From positions 1 through 17,589 of the forward strand of contig JAAYXG010000035.1 in NCBI GenBank assembly GCA_012516015.1: a stretch of 17,589 nucleotides of DNA, read 5' to 3'. The position numbers and the translations under genes were made by a program. Position 1 is the first letter of the stretch. The number at the start of each line of letters is the position of its first letter. The notes under the pieces are model-generated. The model was not told the DNA's origin and made no database searches. It saw only the letters and a list, made by a program, of their open reading frames with translations. This document shows positions 2,885 through 15,414 of the stretch, piece after piece. The DNA comes from Lysobacteraceae bacterium (GTDB lineage: Bacteria > Pseudomonadota > Gammaproteobacteria > Steroidobacterales > Steroidobacteraceae).

Positions 2885-2922
2885 GGCCCGCGTTGCATGG
2901 AGCATCTCGCGGGCCGACCTAC
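2885..2922. repeat. second hairpin plus third GTAGGTCGG copy at the end of the secretin-like gene
   Basis: GGCCCGCG (2885-2892) and CGCGGGCC (2908-2915) form an 8-bp stem with a 15-base loop. Immediately next to it, CCGACCTAC (2914-2922) is a third copy of the GTAGGTCGG end, read on the minus strand. It contains the TAG stop (2919-2921) of the minus-strand gene. It appears to be part of the same composite repeat cluster as 2817-2871 and could act as the terminator of the minus-strand operon. Confidence 0.6.
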
Positions 2923-3812
2923 AAGTCGACCTTCACCCAGACGCTCTGCGAATCGCTCGCCGTCGAGTGCCGGCGCGTGAGGAGGCCGCTTTGCGAGTGA
3001 GTCGACGAGGTTTCGATGCCGCCGAGCTGCACCCATTCGCCGATGCGGGCGCTTATTTGCGTCGTGAGCTGTTGCGTGCGAACCGTGCCGTCGCGCAAAC
3101 CTTCCGCGCGCTGCTCGATGTCTAGCACGACCGTTTCGCCGCTCACGCGCGGCGTGACGAGAAAGCCGTTCGTGAGATCGCGATATTCCGTCGCGGCCGC
3201 GCCCCAGCGATGGCGGCCGACGCCGCCCGCGACGGTCGTGATGATAGGCACGCTCGTGCCCGATGAGATGAACGCCGAAGAACCTTCGAGCACGCTGACG
3301 CTCGAAATGCCCTCGTTTGCCGTGCGAAGGCTCCCGCTCGATCCGCTGATCGTTGCGCTCGAGCGCGCGCCCGGCCGCTCGTTGGCGCTCACCGCACCGC
3401 GCTCGGTGCGCAGGGTCCCCGAGGCGTCGATGCGCTCGCGTTCGATCTGTTCCGCGCTGCTGCGGCGAACCGAGACGAGAAGTTGGCGCGGCTTGCGATC
3501 GAGACGTTCCACCGCGGCTCGAATTTGCGCGACGTTCGAGGCGCTCGCGCGGACGAACAGCGTGTAACCCTGTCCACTCAACGCGCCGCCCGATTCGAGC
3601 AGCGGCTCGAGCACGGGGATGAGCTCCTCGGCGGTACGATTCTCCAGCTCGATCGTCTCGAGCGCTTGCGCCCAGGTCGCGGATGCGACGAGCGCGACGC
3701 TGGCAAAGAGCCACGCCAGCGACGTGATTCGTGATTCGCGGATCGTGATTCGCAAGCGCTGCCGTGCTCGGTCGCGCCCCGATTTTCTTGCGACCCGCAA
3801 GTCACGAATCAC
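2919..3812 (-). CDS. short secretin-like exported protein
   Basis: This 297-residue protein has a hydrophobic export signal at about 30-50 (SLAWLFASVALVASATWAQA). Residues 51-117 resemble a secretin N-domain (ELENRTAEELIPVLEPLLES, ASNVAQIRAAVERLDRKPRQ). After a Ser/Arg-rich stretch, residues 168-297 resemble a reduced secretin core (VLEGSSAFISSGTSVPI, FLVTPRVSGETVVLDIE, GEWVQLGGIE). Secretins of type II/III secretion or type IV pili are usually 500-700 residues, so this is a very small member, perhaps an accessory ring or a non-channel relative. The start is uncertain. GTG at 3812 has GGTGA just upstream but lies in an inverted repeat; TTG at 3755 gives a more normal signal peptide but lacks a ribosome site. 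It follows the 3826-4221 gene by 13 bases, probably as an operon. Confidence 0.75.
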   Translation of the reverse strand: MIRDLRVARKSGRDRARQRLRITIRESRITSLAWLFASVALVASATWAQALETIELENRTAEELIPVLEPLLESGGALSGQGYTLFVRASASNVAQIRAAVERLDRKPRQLLVSVRRSSAEQIERERIDASGTLRTERGAVSANERPGARSSATISGSSGSLRTANEGISSVSVLEGSSAFISSGTSVPIITTVAGGVGRHRWGAAATEYRDLTNGFLVTPRVSGETVVLDIEQRAEGLRDGTVRTQQLTTQISARIGEWVQLGGIETSSTHSQSGLLTRRHSTASDSQSVWVKVDL

Positions 3813-4299: not shown

Positions 4300-4348
4300 T
4301 TCATGGGGCCTTCCTGGACAGCTACAATAGGCCCCCACAATCGTGGGG
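4300..4348 (+). promoter_or_regulatory. candidate promoter and structured leader for the 4360-4659 gene
   Basis: TACAAT (4323-4328) is a good -10 element, with a weak -35 (TTCATG, 4300-4305) at 17-base spacing. Transcription would begin near 4335. A hairpin CCCCAC-AATC-GTGGGG (4333-4348) would then sit at the very 5' end of the mRNA, about 11 bases before the ATG, and holds the only G-rich stretch that could serve as a ribosome site. At the DNA level GGGGCC (4305-4310) can also pair with GGCCCC (4330-4335), overlapping the hairpin. Confidence 0.35.
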
Positions 4349-4359
4349 CAGTGACGACC

Positions 4360-4659
4360 ATGCAGCAATCCGATAATCCTTTCAGCGAAGCTTTCGGCAA
4401 GGCCGTCGATCTGGGCAACAGAATCGCCGACACGGACGAGAAAGCCGACATTTGGGACATCGCGGACGGTCTTCTCGCGGGCGCTGTCCAGTACTGGTTG
4501 TACTCGCGCCAGCCCTGCGCGGATCCGAACTGCGAAGAATGTTTGCCGATCAGCACGGCCGAAGGCCGACTCCAAGAGCTGCGCAAGCTGATCCGCCAGT
4601 TCGCCGAAGAGAGCGAGTATTTCCATTCGCCCACCGACCGCAATGTCGGCCGAGCTTGA
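4360..4659 (+). CDS. small conserved protein with a CxxxxCxxC cluster
   Basis: This 99-residue soluble protein of unknown function begins MQQSDNPFSEAFGKAVDLGN. A helical N-terminal half (DIWDIADGLLAGAVQYWLYS, 31-49) is followed by a Cys cluster C53-A-D-P-N-C58-E-E-C61. A second helix (STAEGRLQELRKLIRQFAEE) and the polar tail SPTDRNVGRA end it. The three cysteines suggest metal or Fe-S binding, or a redox role; a fourth ligand is not obvious. It shows no signal peptide. ATG at 4360 is my choice; GTG at 4351 in the same frame is possible and would put GGGG only two bases away. The protein looks conserved rather than spurious: sensible amino-acid mix, Trp and Cys residues, and ordinary codon use. 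Confidence 0.78.
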   Translation: MQQSDNPFSEAFGKAVDLGNRIADTDEKADIWDIADGLLAGAVQYWLYSRQPCADPNCEECLPISTAEGRLQELRKLIRQFAEESEYFHSPTDRNVGRA

Positions 4660-4900: not shown

Positions 4901-5242
4901 ATGGGAATGCTCAAGAATCTCAAGTTGCGACACCGCGCCTACGTGTGTGCATTCAACTCGTTTCGCTTCGCGGCGCGGCTGCGCGGCGACTTGAGCGAAT
5001 TCGCACCGTCGATTGCGGAGACGCTCGAGAGCGTGGGGGACGAGCTCGCCGCATTGGCGCGCGACAGCTGCCCGACCGAGAACGAGCGCCGTCAGCTCAT
5101 CGAAGGACTCGAGAGTGCGCTTCGCGCCCTGGGATTGTCCGACGCGGCGCAAGTGCACATCGTGTCTCAGCTCGCGCCGCGCATCATGGCAGGCGAGCCC
5201 GCGAGCGCGAGCAAGGAAGCGTGGACGAGGATGGCCGTTTAA
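4901..5242 (+). CDS. small helical protein of unknown function
   Basis: This 113-residue protein begins MGMLKNLKLRHRAYVCAFNS, a basic N-terminus with a central mostly helical region (GDLSEFAPSIAETLESVGDE, ENERRQLIEGLESALRALGL). It has no signal peptide or clear membrane segment. ATG at 4901 has a good ribosome site, GGAGG at 4888-4892, 8 bases upstream, which supports a real gene. No family is recognised. It stands alone; the region downstream carries a hairpin terminator candidate at 5301-5325. Confidence 0.68.
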   Translation: MGMLKNLKLRHRAYVCAFNSFRFAARLRGDLSEFAPSIAETLESVGDELAALARDSCPTENERRQLIEGLESALRALGLSDAAQVHIVSQLAPRIMAGEPASASKEAWTRMAV

Positions 5243-5275
5243 CGAGCGCAGATGGATCGGCGGCGCTTACACTCT

Positions 5276-5300
5276 GCCCAGAGCCCAGAGCCCAGAGCCC
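5276..5300. repeat. 7-base tandem repeat, about 3.6 copies
   Basis: GCCCAGA is repeated exactly three times (5276-5296) followed by GCCC. The array abuts the perfect hairpin at 5301. It could expand or contract by slippage; no function is known. Confidence 0.85.
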
Positions 5301-5325
5301 GCGCTGAGCGCCCTGCGCTCAGCGC
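5301..5325 (+). terminator. perfect 11-bp GC hairpin, probable terminator of the small gene
   Basis: GCGCTGAGCGC (5301-5311) and GCGCTCAGCGC (5315-5325) are exact reverse complements with a 3-base loop CCT. The hairpin lies 59 bases after the stop at 5242. No T-run follows; instead the RNA becomes very C-rich and G-poor (5325-5366), the composition preferred by Rho, so Rho-assisted termination is possible. Confidence 0.5.
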
Positions 5326-5331
5326 CCCCAT

Positions 5332-5372
5332 ACGACATAACCCCATCCACCCCCCCGAAAACCCCCTGTCGT
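5332..5372 (-). other. C-rich tract with G-quadruplex potential on the minus strand
   Basis: The plus strand has runs CCCC (5341-5344), CCCCCCC (5350-5356) and CCCCC (5362-5366). The minus strand therefore carries G5, G7 and G4 runs, and splitting G7 satisfies a four-run G-quadruplex pattern with short loops. The tract is bracketed by ACGACA (5332-5337) and TGTCGT (5367-5372), which can pair. It lies just upstream of the riboswitch promoter region. Confidence 0.4.
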
Positions 5373-5406
5373 CAAATGCCGTGTCTCCTGAAAGCGACCT
5401 CTTCAC

Positions 5407-5435
5407 TTGACTTCCGATTCGTGCCTGCGCAGCAT
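5407..5435 (+). promoter_or_regulatory. candidate promoter of the riboswitch transcript
   Basis: TTGACT (5407-5412) matches the -35 consensus at 5 of 6 positions; CAGCAT (5430-5435) is a weak -10 at 17-base spacing. Transcription would start near 5442, right at the 5' edge of the riboswitch, which is what would be expected. The weak -10 leaves it unproven. Confidence 0.35.
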
Positions 5436-5442
5436 CTTGCTT

Positions 5443-5530
5443 AGCTCAGGGCAAACTCGCCGAAAGGCGAGGACGCAAAGCTTCCGGTCTAACGGAGAAC
5501 TCTCCTAAGACAGCGGGGTTGCCACAGGCG
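5443..5530 (+). promoter_or_regulatory. cyclic di-GMP-I (GEMM-I) riboswitch
   Basis: The sequence matches the conserved core of c-di-GMP-I aptamers in order. AGGGCAAAC (5448-5456) is followed by a 6-bp stem CTCGCC/GGCGAG closed by a GAAA tetraloop (5462-5465). Next comes GGACGCAAAGC (5471-5481), then a second hairpin (GGAG-AACT-CTCC, 5494-5505) carrying CCTAAG (5504-5509), half of an 11-nt-type GAAA-tetraloop receptor. Last is the conserved GCGGGGTTGCC (5513-5523). A closing helix may form between GCCTG (5423-5427) and CAGGC (5525-5529). It lies about 160 bases upstream of the SPOR-repeat gene at 5689 in the same direction and should make that gene respond to c-di-GMP. Exact ends are approximate. 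Confidence 0.93.
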
Positions 5531-5688
5531 ATTCGCATCGTGCGACTCACGAAGCACGAATATGTATATCAATAAGCGATGAAGCTGTGACGACGGCGCG
5601 ACGGCGCCTCCCCCGCGAAAGGTCGATTTGCGAGAGCTGCTCCTAGGCTCGAGCGTGTGTTTGCGGCTGCAGCGTTGGGGAAGGAAAC
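5531..5688 (+). promoter_or_regulatory. leader between riboswitch and start codon (candidate expression platform)
   Basis: This stretch holds a 6-bp hairpin TCGTGC/GCACGA (5538-5543, 5554-5559), a short hairpin GGCGC-GACG-GCGCC (5595-5608) and CCCCGC (5611-5616). The last is an exact complement of the conserved GCGGGG of the aptamer (5513-5518). That pairing would break the ligand fold and could be the switch. There is no hairpin with a T-run, so control may be at translation or by Rho. The start codon is preceded by GGGGAAGGAAAC. Confidence 0.4.
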
Positions 5689-7464
5689 GTGGAGAAGAGC
5701 ACGAGCAAGGCCTTCGTCGAGACGACAGGTCCAATTGCGGGCGCGTTGGCGCCGACCGGCGAAGCCGGTACACCTTTATTCCTCATCAACTTGTGCGCCT
5801 CGATGGCGCCGGTTCAACCCGCAACCAAGTCGCTACCCGGCCTGGAAGCCTACCGCCTCTATCAAGTCACGCGCGTCGAAGATGGGCGCACGCGCTATCG
5901 CCTGCGGCTCGGCTTCTTTCCGTCCGATGCCGAGGCCGAGGCCGTGCTCCTCAAGGTCCGCGAACAGTACCCGACCGCGTTTACGGCGTGTCTATGTGAA
6001 GAGGATCGGCGGCACACGCGCGGCTACGTCGTGCCGGACCGCGCCGCCGCACCCGCGATGACCATCGTGCCGTCGCCGTCGAGCGCGCCAAAAGCTGCGG
6101 CCGAACCCGTCGCAAAGAAGCCGGCGACTGCACAGCCCACTCGCACGACCGGCGCACCGCGCAACGGCGCATCGGCGGCGAAAGCCGTGCCCGCCAAAGC
6201 GCCTACCGCAAGCAAACCGGCCGCGCCCGCAGCCCCCTCGTCGATCGAAGTCGCGCGGCACGCGCAGAAAGACGCGGCGCCCCCCGCTGCGAAACAGGCG
6301 ACACACAAGCCGCAAGTTGCGCCCAAGGCGCAACCCACTCGCGGCGCCGCTGCACCGAAGACCGATGCGAAGCAGGACACCGCTGCAAGCATGCGAGTCG
6401 AAGCGCTCGATCTGACCCTATCGGATCCGCCGCCGCCTCCAGCGCAGAAGACGAGCACGCCGTCGAATCAGCCGTTCCATGTAGGCAAAGGCGTTGATAT
6501 CCCAACGACACACCTTTCGCTGCAAGCGGAGTCCGCGACGACTCCAAGCACAAAGCCTGCCGCGACCAAGCCCGCAGCCTCCCCCGCCGCGGCCTCGCGC
6601 GGCGCGAATGGCGCGGCACTGAAAGCGCCGGCGGCCAAACCGGCTTCGACCACACCCGCAGCGCCGACGATGGCTGCTCCGCCGAAAGCGGCGATCCAGG
6701 CCAAGCATCCCGATCTCGACAGCACGCAAACCATTCGCGCACTGACCGCAGAGGAGCTCAACGACGAGACGCAAGAGAAGGTCTTTGCGATCCAGCTCGC
6801 CGCCTCCGAGCAACCCGTCAATTTGGATGCGATGCCGCATCTCGACATCTTCGAAGCGTATCGGCTTTATTCCGTGGCCACGGCCGGCAGCGGCAAGATC
6901 GTCCATTCCTTGCGGCTCGGCTTTTTCAAGGAAGCCCTGTCCGCCGAAGCCGTGGCGGGGTACCTCAAGACCTTCTTCAGCTCGCCGACCGTGATTCGCA
7001 TCAGCGTCGCCGAGCAGGCCCGCTTCAAAGATGCGACGCTCCCCAAGAAGCCGGCACCGGTCGAAACCAAAGCCAACGTCATCGAGCTCGACAGTGCTCG
7101 CAGCGCACGCGTCCCGACCGTGACGATGGAAGTGGTTCCCGGTCCCGACACGAGCGCGACGGGCTCGTTCAAGATGAACGCGACCGGCTCGTTCCGCACA
7201 TCCGACACCGCGAAGCATCGCGCGCTGCCTGCCGGCATGAAGCCGGCGGCGAAGAACGCCTCGACACCTACGAAGCGCTCCGCGCCGATCTCGCGAAAGA
7301 AAACCGCTACGAGCGGCAAGTACAAGTCGATTCAGAAGAAGTCGCTCGCCGAGCAACTGCTCGAGGAAGCAAAGGAAGTCGAGCTCTCGGAAAGCGGCAT
7401 TTTCAGAATGCAGAAAAGCGAGACTTCGCTGCTGTCGCGCTTGGTGGACAAGCTCAAGAAATAG
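5689..7464 (+). CDS. protein with two SPOR-like repeats, under a c-di-GMP riboswitch
   Basis: This 591-residue protein begins with GTG at 5689 behind GGGGAAGGA. It has two related modules. The first, at about 30-102 (FLINLC, then LEAYRLYQVTRVEDG and LRLGFFPSDAEAEAV), is mirrored at about 363-440 (FAIQLA, then FEAYRLYSVATAGSG and LRLGFFKEALSAEAV). The pattern resembles SPOR domains, which normally bind denuded peptidoglycan glycans. The 260-residue linker is rich in Ala, Pro, Lys and Thr. The C-terminus has two ATGSF repeats, a basic region and a helical end (SLLSRLVDKLKK). I see no signal peptide or membrane segment, so the location is probably cytoplasmic or export is non-standard, which is odd for SPOR. 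The riboswitch suggests a role in a c-di-GMP-governed surface or motility process; this is inference. A hairpin follows its stop. Confidence 0.88.
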   Translation: MEKSTSKAFVETTGPIAGALAPTGEAGTPLFLINLCASMAPVQPATKSLPGLEAYRLYQVTRVEDGRTRYRLRLGFFPSDAEAEAVLLKVREQYPTAFTACLCEEDRRHTRGYVVPDRAAAPAMTIVPSPSSAPKAAAEPVAKKPATAQPTRTTGAPRNGASAAKAVPAKAPTASKPAAPAAPSSIEVARHAQKDAAPPAAKQATHKPQVAPKAQPTRGAAAPKTDAKQDTAASMRVEALDLTLSDPPPPPAQKTSTPSNQPFHVGKGVDIPTTHLSLQAESATTPSTKPAATKPAASPAAASRGANGAALKAPAAKPASTTPAAPTMAAPPKAAIQAKHPDLDSTQTIRALTAEELNDETQEKVFAIQLAASEQPVNLDAMPHLDIFEAYRLYSVATAGSGKIVHSLRLGFFKEALSAEAVAGYLKTFFSSPTVIRISVAEQARFKDATLPKKPAPVETKANVIELDSARSARVPTVTMEVVPGPDTSATGSFKMNATGSFRTSDTAKHRALPAGMKPAAKNASTPTKRSAPISRKKTATSGKYKSIQKKSLAEQLLEEAKEVELSESGIFRMQKSETSLLSRLVDKLKK

Positions 7465-7485
7465 GTGACGCGACCCGCGTCGCCT
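7463..7485. terminator. hairpin between convergent genes, probable bidirectional terminator
   Basis: AGGTGACGCG (7463-7472) pairs with CGCGTCGCCT (7476-7485) over 10 bp including one G-T pair, with a 3-base loop. It fills most of the 33-base gap between the SPOR-repeat gene and the minus-strand lipocalin gene and overlaps the former's TAG stop. Short T-rich stretches flank it on either strand. Confidence 0.55.
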
Positions 7486-7497
7486 GTTTCGCCTGCC

Positions 7498-8616
7498 TCA
7501 CTCGGCTTCGTAGCCGGTCAACTCCAAGTAGCCCTTCCCGATGCGCGCGCCGCGCTCGTCGAGCACGCGGACGGCGCCTTCCCAATAGATCGAGCCCGTG
7601 CTGCCTCGAGCATCGTTCTCTTGATCGTCCATGAGCGGCTGGAGCCGCAGCGTTCGATCTCCTATCGCGATACGCCACTCGACCGGATACACGATGTCGG
7701 TTCGCGGCGAACGCCAATGCCGCAAAGGTGCCCATTCGATCTCATCCGGCCCGAACGCACGCACCGGTCCTGTCGGCGAGACTCGCCAAGTGCCCGCGGC
7801 CCAATGCTCCCTCCCGCTTTTGTCTTTGATTTGTCCGGCAGCCACGGCGCCGCCATCGTCCAAGTTGATTCCCATCCAATCCCATTGCATGGCCGCATCG
7901 TCGAGCAATCGACTCGACCATTCGTGATCGAACCATGCGGCACCGCGCACGCGATAACGCGCATTTTCGATCCGCACTTCACCCGTCGTCTCGAGCTGAG
8001 GCAGGCTGTAGTAGTAGCTCGCGTAGCTCGGATCCGGGCTCTTCTGACTGAAGCCGTTGTCGCCTTGAAGAATCGGCGGCTGCACGGCACGGAACTCGAG
8101 CTCGATCGAAAAGTCCGCCGCCGCAATCGACGTGCGATAGATTTCCCCCTCTTGGCGCAACGACCACTCGTCGATGCGCACATCGAGCCGCCCCTCCGCT
8201 GCCTCCGCCAACCCGAAACCTGCACGGGCCGACCGCTCGGCGCGCAGCAGACGACCGCGCATCGGATCGCTGATCGCGGCATGCGCAAAGAGCAGCTGTC
8301 TCGGGGCGAAGCGCGACGGATTCCGCTCGTCGACTCCCGGTCGATTGCGGAAGAACGTCACTTGAAAACCGCGCTCGATGCCCTCTCGATCGGTGAGCCA
8401 ACCCGTGACATACCACCACTCGGTGCGAAACGCGGGATGACTGCCTTCATCTTCAGGAAACGAGATCGCATATCCGGGTATGACGTCCGGGTATTCGGCC
8501 TCGCTCGCATGAACGAGCGAGGCCCAGACGATAAACAGAATGCACGCACAAAGCGCGCGCGCGCGAAGCAACGTCCGGCGCGCGGCCGTGTGATCCATAC
8601 GTGCCGTGACGCTCAC
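7498..8616 (-). CDS. attH: AttH/CrtC-like secreted lipocalin-fold protein of an Att-type ABC system
   Basis: This 372-residue protein starts at GTG 8616, overlapping the permease stop by 4 bases (GTGA), with a strong AAGGAGG site four bases upstream. ATG at 8598 is an alternative with poorer spacing. A signal peptide covers about 1-37 (LLRARALCACILFIVWASLV), with cleavage near VHAS. The mature part shows signatures of the AttH/CrtC lipocalin-like family: EWWYVTGWL (66-74), WFDHEW (228-233) and WDWMGINLDDG. Relatives are often labelled secreted hydrolase or carotenoid 1,2-hydratase, but in an operon with an FtsX-type transporter it is better read as the periplasmic partner of an AttEFGH system, perhaps carrying a hydrophobic substrate. 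The substrate is unknown. The reading frame extends further upstream without a stop, overlapping the permease, but that extension is not protein-like. Confidence 0.88.
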   Translation of the reverse strand: MSVTARMDHTAARRTLLRARALCACILFIVWASLVHASEAEYPDVIPGYAISFPEDEGSHPAFRTEWWYVTGWLTDREGIERGFQVTFFRNRPGVDERNPSRFAPRQLLFAHAAISDPMRGRLLRAERSARAGFGLAEAAEGRLDVRIDEWSLRQEGEIYRTSIAAADFSIELEFRAVQPPILQGDNGFSQKSPDPSYASYYYSLPQLETTGEVRIENARYRVRGAAWFDHEWSSRLLDDAAMQWDWMGINLDDGGAVAAGQIKDKSGREHWAAGTWRVSPTGPVRAFGPDEIEWAPLRHWRSPRTDIVYPVEWRIAIGDRTLRLQPLMDDQENDARGSTGSIYWEGAVRVLDERGARIGKGYLELTGYEAE

Positions 8617-12705: not shown

Positions 12706-12718
12706 CATGCATTGCATG
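12706..12718. promoter_or_regulatory. short palindrome in the divergent promoter region
   Basis: CATGCA-T-TGCATG is an odd-centred palindrome midway between the divergent outer-membrane protein and glucan-synthase genes, a suitable place for an operator. It also contains the in-frame TTG at 12712, an alternative start of the glucan-synthase gene. Confidence 0.3.
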
Positions 12719-12735
12719 AGCCCACCGCTCTTCCC

Positions 12736-15414
12736 ATGCTCGCATCGCTGAAAGTCTCCGGCGCGCTCGTCGCGATCGTATTCGCGGCGATCACCTTCGG
12801 GTTGTGGGCGTGGATCAATCGACCCGCCGACGACCCCGGATGGCCCGAACGCGGCCTCCAAGGCGTCACGTTCTCCCCGTTTCGTGAAGGCCAAGATCCC
12901 GCTCATAACACCTTCCCGACGATCGCAGAGCTCGAATCGGATCTGCGGCTCCTCTCCGCCGCGTCGATAGCGGCGGTGCGTACCTACTCGACGCTGCACA
13001 CGCTCGCTCACATTCCGAGGCTCGCCGGCGAGCACCAGATCAAGGTCACGTTAGGCGCTTGGTTGGGCGAGGACCCCAAGACGAACGATGCCGAGATCGC
13101 GAACGCGATCGAGCTCGCCGCGACTCAGCCGAGCGTCATCCGTCTCATCGTCGGCAACGAAACGCTGCTGCGCGGCGACTTGGACGTTCGCACCTTGATC
13201 GCGTATCTCGAGCGCGTGCGAAGCGAAGTGCGCCAGCCCGTCAGCACCGCGGAGCCGTGGCACGTCTGGCTCGATCACCCCGAGCTTGCCGAGCACGTCG
13301 ATTATCTCGCGGTTCACATCCTGCCCTATTGGGAAGGCATCTCGCTGGACCGCGCCATGACGTACATCGTCGAGCGCATGCAGGAGCTCCAAAGCGCGTT
13401 TCCCGGCAAGCACATCGTCATCGCGGAAGTCGGTTGGCCGTCCGACGGGCGGATGCGCGAGGCCGCGGTCGCCTCGACGAGCAATCAATCGTTGTTCCTG
13501 CGGCGCTTCCTGCGGCTCGCACGCCAGGAAGGCTACCTCTACTACATCGTCGAAGCGTTCGATCAACCCTGGAAGGTGCGCACCGAGGGCACGGCGGGTG
13601 CATATTGGGGGCTCTACGACGTCAAACGCGAGCCGAAGTTCACGTTCGTCGAGCCGATCGTGCGCGTACCGGGGTGGCGCACGCTCGCCGCGATCTCGGT
13701 TTCGATCGCAGCGCTCCTGCTCGGCCTGTTCTTCGTTCACAGCAAGACCTTGAGCACGCGCGGGCGCAGTCTTCTCGCCGTCGTCGTGTACTCCGCGGCA
13801 ACCGCGCTCGTGCTCGTCATCTACGACTACTCGCAGAAATATCTGACGATCGCGAGCGCGCTCATCGGACTCGCCTTGATTCTCGGCATGCTGTTCGTGA
13901 TCGCGGTCGTGCTCGCCGAAGCGCACGAATGGGCGGAAGCGCACTTCGCGACTTCGCGCCGCCGTGCCTTCGCCCGCGGGTCGCACGGCGAGCTCGCACC
14001 CAAAGTGTCGATTCATGTCCCGGCACACGACGAACCGCCCGCGATGCTGATCGAGACGCTGAACGCGCTCGCGCGCCTCGAGTATCCCGACTTCGAAGTA
14101 ATCGTGATCGACAACAACACGGCGGATGAGGCGAAGTGGCGGCCCGTCGAAGCGCACTGCGCGCATCTCGGACCGCGCTTTCGCTTCTTCCACGTGAGCC
14201 CGCTTGCGGGATTCAAGGCGGGCGCGCTCAACTTCGCGTTACAGCAGACGGCTGCGGATGCGCAAATCATCGCCGTCATCGACAGCGACTATAAAGTCGA
14301 GCCGCACTGGCTGAAGGACCTCGTCCCTGCATTCGGTCATGAAGGCACCGCGATCGTGCAGGCGCCGCAGGACTATCGGGACGCGAACGAAAGTCTCTTC
14401 AAGGCGATGTGCTACGCCGAGTACCGCGGCTTCTTCCAGATCGGCATGGTCACGCGCAACGAGCGCAACGCGATCATTCAACACGGCACGATGACGCTCG
14501 TGCGTCGGGAAGCGCTCGAGAAAGTCGGCGGGTGGGCGGAATGGTGCATCACAGAAGATGCGGAGCTCGGCTTGCGGATGTTCGAGCACGGCTACGAAGC
14601 GCAATATATCCCCGAGAGCTACGGGCGCGGGCTCATTCCGGAAACATTCCTGGACTATAAGAAGCAGCGCTTTCGCTGGGCGTTCGGAGCGATGCAGATG
14701 CTGCGCGCGCACGCTCGTGCGCTGCTCTCGCCGTCCGACACGCGCCTGACGCGGGGCCAGCGGTATCACTTCATCGCCGGCTGGCTCCCTTGGATCGCCG
14801 ACGGCTTGAACCTCCTCTTCAACTTCGGCGCGATCGCTTGGTCGGTCGCAATGCTCGTCGCGCCCCATCGCATCGAGCCGCCGCTCGTCATGTTCTCGCT
14901 CTTCCCCGTCGCGATGTTCACGTTCCGACTCGTCAAGCTCGCGCACCTGTACGTTTCGCGAGTGGGTGCAAACATCCGCGAGACCTTCGCTGCAGCGGTT
15001 GCCGGTCTCGCGCTGGCGCATACGATCGGCACGGCAGTACTGAAGTCGCTGTTCGTCCGAAGCCAGCCGTTTCTGCGCACGCCCAAGGACAAGGCACAGC
15101 GCACGCTCGGCGGTATCGTGGGTGCGGCACGCCAAGAGTCGATCATGCTGGTCGCGCTGCTCACGTGCGCCTACGGGCTCACCTATTCGCTTCCGTTCGG
15201 CCCGGGGCGCTCGCTCGGCATTCCCGAGGAGCTGCGCGCACCCGATCTATCGCTCTGGGTGGCAGTGCTCTTGATTCAATCGTTGCCGTATGCGGCAGCG
15301 GTGCTGGTCTCGAGCATCGGCGCCTCGTCGCTCTCGGCCCGCTGGTTGGGACGGGACGCATCGAGTCTTCGCTTGGCCGCACAGGACGTCGGCAAGACCG
15401 ATGCGCGCCGCTGA
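12736..15414 (+). CDS. membrane GH17-GT2 fusion, NdvB/NdvC-type beta-glucan synthase
   Basis: This 892-residue protein (from ATG 12736; in-frame TTG at 12712 would add 8) opens with a membrane anchor (residues about 6-28). A periplasmic GH17 domain at about 38-310 has the acid/base E142 (IVGNET) and nucleophile E231 (VIAEVGWPSDG). Three membrane segments at about 325-410 follow. The cytoplasmic GT2 domain at about 425-660 has the acceptor-side VIVIDNNT, metal-binding D516-S-D518, catalytic E607-D608 (TEDAELG) and the processive QxxRW motif Q644-W648. The last third has further membrane segments. Proteins with this layout polymerise glucose from UDP-glucose into beta-1,3-glucan, and the GH17 part remodels or cyclises chains in the periplasm. 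Such glucans serve osmotic adaptation or biofilm matrix and antibiotic binding. No PilZ domain is present. Neither start has a clear ribosome site. Confidence 0.92.
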   Translation: MLASLKVSGALVAIVFAAITFGLWAWINRPADDPGWPERGLQGVTFSPFREGQDPAHNTFPTIAELESDLRLLSAASIAAVRTYSTLHTLAHIPRLAGEHQIKVTLGAWLGEDPKTNDAEIANAIELAATQPSVIRLIVGNETLLRGDLDVRTLIAYLERVRSEVRQPVSTAEPWHVWLDHPELAEHVDYLAVHILPYWEGISLDRAMTYIVERMQELQSAFPGKHIVIAEVGWPSDGRMREAAVASTSNQSLFLRRFLRLARQEGYLYYIVEAFDQPWKVRTEGTAGAYWGLYDVKREPKFTFVEPIVRVPGWRTLAAISVSIAALLLGLFFVHSKTLSTRGRSLLAVVVYSAATALVLVIYDYSQKYLTIASALIGLALILGMLFVIAVVLAEAHEWAEAHFATSRRRAFARGSHGELAPKVSIHVPAHDEPPAMLIETLNALARLEYPDFEVIVIDNNTADEAKWRPVEAHCAHLGPRFRFFHVSPLAGFKAGALNFALQQTAADAQIIAVIDSDYKVEPHWLKDLVPAFGHEGTAIVQAPQDYRDANESLFKAMCYAEYRGFFQIGMVTRNERNAIIQHGTMTLVRREALEKVGGWAEWCITEDAELGLRMFEHGYEAQYIPESYGRGLIPETFLDYKKQRFRWAFGAMQMLRAHARALLSPSDTRLTRGQRYHFIAGWLPWIADGLNLLFNFGAIAWSVAMLVAPHRIEPPLVMFSLFPVAMFTFRLVKLAHLYVSRVGANIRETFAAAVAGLALAHTIGTAVLKSLFVRSQPFLRTPKDKAQRTLGGIVGAARQESIMLVALLTCAYGLTYSLPFGPGRSLGIPEELRAPDLSLWVAVLLIQSLPYAAAVLVSSIGASSLSARWLGRDASSLRLAAQDVGKTDARR

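Follow-up and report, generated by a model that had tools for sequence, protein, structure and literature searches.

A conserved c-di-GMP-I riboswitch aptamer precedes a gene whose product has two SPOR-like modules in Steroidobacteraceae

What does a c-di-GMP riboswitch control when the gene behind it resembles no familiar c-di-GMP target? The question is raised by a locus within a 17,589-nucleotide stretch of a draft Steroidobacteraceae genome (contig JAAYXG010000035.1, here called the window), where a first-pass annotation had read a c-di-GMP-I (GEMM-I) riboswitch in a gene leader and, in the gene's product, two SPOR-like repeats, and could not match that product to a known c-di-GMP output. 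Our search of the open-licence literature likewise found no described output that matches this target. The riboswitch class itself is ordinary, and it is the partner protein, one of a conserved family of targets, that makes the locus notable. As an explanation of the whole, we favor a translational OFF switch that would govern a cytoplasmic, membrane-associated adaptor, to which we assign a probability of roughly one half.

The aptamer and its pairing with the gene

The Rfam covariance model RF01051 (c-di-GMP-I) matched positions 5440-5526 of the forward strand over its full length (model positions 1-87 of 87), scoring 86.4 bits where the gathering score is 35 (E 3e-16), and the variant model RF03167 (c-di-GMP-I-GGC) scored 66.6 bits at the same site. 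This search, which the first-pass annotation had proposed as a check, confirmed the GEMM-I core claimed there, and the motifs it had named (AGGGCAAAC, a GAAA-capped stem, GGACGCAAAGC, CCTAAG and GCGGGGTTGCC) were all found in the sequence. The aptamer does cover position 5443, given there as the start of the feature, and the model match begins at 5440. The placement in a gene leader also holds, with an open reading frame behind the aptamer that starts at a GTG codon at 5689. Both the GAAA loop, a GNRA tetraloop, and its receptor half CCTAAG lie within 5440-5526, and the aptamer carries a G, within AGGGC, that we take to be the alignment counterpart of G20 in the Vibrio cholerae aptamer Vc2. 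The Vc2 G20 position is described as a selectivity factor of the aptamer in PMC9262584. Judged by these sequence features, the riboswitch is almost certainly a member of the c-di-GMP-I class, and c-di-GMP would be its ligand.

Homologues of the protein, at a threshold of E up to 1e-3, were detected in 39 of the 98 genomes searched, the window's own included, and in all 14 genomes of its genus; the named relatives are labelled Steroidobacter, Peristeroidobacter or Gammaproteobacteria. Four of the 39 genomes (G050 and G055 from the family, G079 and G092 from the order) yielded only frames of about 820-870 amino acids, in which a single SPOR-like module is joined by TPR-like repeats and a long C-terminus rich in beta structure, and were left out of the comparison, which covered 35 family loci (the window and 34 relatives). 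A covariance-model aptamer was present 5' of the gene at 30 of these 35 loci, made up of the genus (14/14), a further nine and seven others. Of the 15 genera with the gene, 12 also have the aptamer in front of it. The survey of homologues for the same leader, suggested at first pass, thus revealed that the pairing of aptamer and gene is conserved in the family.

Upstream of the aptamer lies a putative sigma-70-type promoter (5407-5435, forward strand), composed of TTGACT at 5407-5412, a 17-nucleotide spacer and CAGCAT at 5430-5435. In 29 of the 30 leaders, the motif TTGAC occurs 41-69 nucleotides 5' of the aptamer core AGGGCAAAC, compared with 3.7% of random 84-nucleotide windows from the same loci, and because of this placement the transcript probably starts shortly 5' of the aptamer. 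The candidate -10 elements agree with the consensus at only three or four of six positions across the leaders (three of six for CAGCAT in the window), and a consensus promoter scan of 5200-7700 reported none.

Leader folding and the direction of the switch

The ribosome-binding site (RBS) of the gene, GGGGAAGG, occupies 5677-5684, four bases ahead of the GTG start, and in both modelled ensembles of the window its partner is a C-rich anti-Shine-Dalgarno tract, CCTCCCCCGCG, at 5607-5617 (both forward strand). In 23 of 29 leaders, GGGGA lies no more than 18 nucleotides from the start codon. Measured against shuffled leaders, RBS:leader complementarity gave a mean z of -1.25 over 30 leaders, six of them with a positive z, and the window duplex was equalled or bettered by two of 200 shuffles. 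RNAalifold, applied to 12 of the 14 genus leaders, recovered both the aptamer and the CCCC:GGGG pairing.

In folding calculations, which ignore ligand, tertiary contacts and cotranscriptional order, the RBS became less accessible once the aptamer was enforced, its mean unpaired probability across 29 leaders going from 0.39 down to 0.20. Access fell by more than 0.05 in 19 of these, rose in one and changed by 0.05 or less in nine, although the leaders are related and such counts are therefore not independent. The mean change was -0.190 in real leaders versus +0.018 in dinucleotide-shuffled platforms (30 sets, standard deviation between sets 0.035, lowest -0.078), and falls of more than 0.05 were seen in 66% of real leaders versus 20% of single shuffles. 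By contrast with the RBS, the start codon displayed no consistent trend in these 29 leaders (mean access 0.34 without and 0.38 with the aptamer; lower in seven, higher in ten).

How the aptamer might be coupled to the RBS appears to differ between leaders. In the unconstrained ensemble of the window, GCGGGG of the aptamer 3' strand GCGGGGTTGCC (5513-5523, forward strand) pairs with the leader 3' of the aptamer with a probability of 0.79, mostly with a segment around 5532-5534 and at only 0.09 with the anti-Shine-Dalgarno tract. One candidate for a general mechanism, direct competition in which GCGGGG and the RBS vie for a single C tract, was rejected on two counts: complementarity of the aptamer 3' strand to the leader was not above that of shuffles (mean z +0.38, 30 leaders), and the leaders whose tract is occupied by aptamer bases in the free state (probability over 0.3) number just 10 of 29, the window not among them (0.10). 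With or without the aptamer enforced, the window start codon stays paired (unpaired probability 0.01 and 0.02), and free-state access of its RBS is only 0.23, compared with 0.48 in its own shuffles, so that even the modelled ON state would be mostly masked. Collectively, the folding models favor a translational OFF switch across the family without one common relay, which lends moderate support to this direction of switching.

In the mechanism that we propose, a transcript beginning just 5' of 5440 would carry the aptamer. While the aptamer is unformed, its 3' strand would be paired elsewhere in the leader and GGGGAAGG would on average be more open, the ON state; upon stabilization of the aptamer by c-di-GMP, the leader would refold and the C-rich tract would mask the RBS, the OFF state. 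This could proceed by direct competition in 10 of the 29 leaders, with an indirect rearrangement modelled for the window. The OFF model predicts that the protein is made at low c-di-GMP and shut off at high c-di-GMP.

The most serious competitor, somewhat less probable than the reading we favor, is a real riboswitch that acts as an ON switch or on transcription, for example through Rho, rather than by masking the RBS. GEMM-I switches in other species go both ways, according to PMC6366702, and RNAalifold on the 12 genus leaders also paired the aptamer 3' edge with the start codon (CCACG:CGUGG), an arrangement that could favor ON logic, as could the larger number of leaders in which the start codon opens with the aptamer. 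However, the CCACG:CGUGG pairing is known from these 12 leaders and may be a coding coincidence, and the enforced aptamer shuts the RBS in far more leaders than it opens, while shuffled platforms behave otherwise. A transcription terminator in the leader was tried as a candidate and rejected, since the leader has only one weak terminator-like site on the forward strand (5638-5655), and four such sites in the whole region scanned compare with 3.2 expected by chance.

Vc2 offers the closest comparison for the OFF switch proposed here. It shares the aptamer class, and masking of its RBS at a distance from the aptamer has reportedly been proposed; its target, by contrast, is a tfoX-like gene, and masking in the window leader is a modelled feature. 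Two sources disagree on Vc2 itself, with one presenting it as a translational OFF switch (PMC9262584) and the other as an ON switch (PMC12564702).

A protein with two SPOR-like modules

The gene (5689-7464, forward strand) encodes a protein of 591 amino acids. Its first module (residues 27-105; 5767-6003) matched the Pfam SPOR family (PF05036) with 31.3 bits against a cut-off of 21 over residues 54-98, and its top fold matches are the SPOR structures of RlpA, CwlC and DamX; helix 1 of this module is absent from the predicted structure, a low-confidence model (mean pLDDT 56.8 over the protein). The second module (residues 360-446; 6766-7026), searched alone, matched no Pfam family at E up to 10, and it is 41% identical to module 1 (E 2e-13; profile-profile E 2.7e-11). 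The two repeats noted at first pass are thereby corroborated, and, as the second falls below Pfam detection, we call it no more than SPOR-like. Between the modules runs a linker rich in Ala, Pro and Lys (6004-6765; 27% A, 16% P and 9% K over residues 106-340), mostly of low pLDDT, in which an alignment of 20 homologues revealed the conserved islands SDPPPPP, PFHVGKG and LDSTQTIRALT. The protein ends in a basic amphipathic helix (7429-7461, closing with LLSRLVDKLKK) that may act as a membrane tether; the model places a helix at residues 581-590 with a pLDDT of about 76-80, and in 82% of 240 homologues the C-terminal 22 residues surpass their shuffles in hydrophobic moment (p<0.05).

Hydropathy gave no sign of a signal peptide or of a transmembrane helix in the window protein, whose most hydrophobic stretch is strand 1 of module 1. 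Direct binding of peptidoglycan would therefore require an unusual mode of export. Longer N-termini are predicted in 6 of the 20 aligned homologues, which we take to reflect the choice of start codon. Of the two roles suggested at first pass, a cell-wall protein or a scaffold, the former finds no backing in the hydropathy profile, and a membrane-associated cytoplasmic scaffold appears to suit the sequence better. The product of our preferred mechanism would accordingly be a cytoplasmic adaptor held at the membrane, with two SPOR-like modules, a long flexible linker and the C-terminal amphipathic helix. In comparison with the SPOR proteins RlpA, CwlC, DamX and DedD, the window protein has two modules, the second below Pfam detection, and the amphipathic helix, and it has neither a visible export signal nor a predicted helix 1 in module 1.

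A class-wide sample gave matches in 22 of 369 genomes, two of which belong to the genus. From the remaining 20, nine were read; each had a single SPOR-like module with TPR-like sequence behind it, in one case within a short frame of 311 amino acids. Such gammaproteobacterial proteins share the kind of SPOR-like module with the window protein but have only one, together with a long beta-rich C-terminus, mostly in frames of about 690-1070 amino acids, and the majority of those read begin with a signal-like sequence. A search with a GEMM-I sequence pattern, rather than the covariance model, found no occurrence at six of their loci (L109-L114). Among the loci read, the two-module type was seen only in this bacterial family.

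An unlikely alternative, in our estimate, is that the protein acts like a canonical SPOR protein: exported along a route not yet recognised, it would attach to peptidoglycan by way of its SPOR-like modules. The structures that best match module 1 point that way, as do the distant relatives, which by eye mostly combine signal-like N-termini with TPR-like repeats and long beta-rich C-termini, and the other GEMM-I targets of the family include an M23 peptidase-like gene. Against this stand the N-terminus of the window protein, which is not signal-like and leaves the hydrophobic maximum to module 1, and the lack of a predicted helix 1 in that module.

Variation across the family and the c-di-GMP network

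The five loci without an aptamer are those of three genomes of one genus (G022, G042 and G058), of G015 and of G040, which looks broken; a permissive Rfam scan of these loci found nothing of the c-di-GMP-I class. Gene neighbors vary between clades, and none was seen in common to all family loci, several of which are cut by contig ends. Despite these five loci, a decoupled or vestigial aptamer conserved by local synteny only is highly improbable, given that family aptamers score about 60-87 bits with either class model and that the aptamer stays with the gene while neighbors differ, the next most widespread neighbor clusters reaching 15 of 35 loci.

In the group of seven counted last among the 30 aptamer loci, the GGC variant model scored best at six. 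In two genomes of one genus (G029 and G048, loci L049 and L048), the base that we presume to be equivalent to Vc2 G20 reads A (AGAGC, ATAGC), and in G028 (locus L050) the base so aligned reads C (ATCGC). Ligand preference may therefore vary among the relatives.

The window's draft genome (3.6 Mb, 75.6% complete) has four c-di-GMP-I sites, that of the window included. GGDEF matches number 15 in this genome, although two of these may be halves of a single gene. At 15 family loci, other GEMM-I sites precede, as read by eye, mostly genes for Ig/Fn3-type lipoproteins and TlpA-like thioredoxins, in addition to two M23-like peptidases and one PilM-like protein, which makes a c-di-GMP regulon centered on the envelope and surface plausible. 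Retention of the aptamer-gene pair across relatives of this soil-type bacterium points to an envelope function tied to c-di-GMP as a lifestyle signal, and, with the same switch recurring in most gene-bearing genera, c-di-GMP control is at present the best lead to what the protein does. More speculatively, and with doubtful odds, the family might share a riboswitch-gated, membrane-tethered double-SPOR scaffold in the cytoplasm that is made only at low c-di-GMP and, through translational control exerted directly, links the motile-to-sessile switch to the envelope or division machinery. Should SPOR-like folds indeed function inside the cell, the range of uses of this fold would be wider.

Several further features were observed. 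In the second clade, 12 loci have a GGDEF-EAL-type gene, identified by eye in one representative, whose start lies about 1.9-4.9 kb upstream of the SPOR-like match; at L059, for example, it occupies 5023-7950 in reversed orientation. Two tandem c-di-GMP-I aptamer patterns lie upstream of genes for Ig-like or cadherin-like repeat proteins at L083, L099 and L087, and in two family genomes (L078 and L085) a c-di-GMP-I aptamer lies upstream of an M23 peptidase-like gene. Within the window, 12712-15414 (forward strand) encodes a large protein that ends in a GT2 domain and also has a GH17-like match, the latter below cut-off, and is reminiscent of NdvB-type beta-glucan synthases. A 297-amino-acid protein (2919-3812, reverse strand) has Secretin_N and Secretin matches just above cut-off and is much shorter than the GspD or PilQ models. 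Two small forward-strand open reading frames (4303-4659 and 4901-5242), one lacking a Pfam match and one with a chance-like match only, are conserved upstream of the riboswitch at 14 and 12 other loci, respectively.
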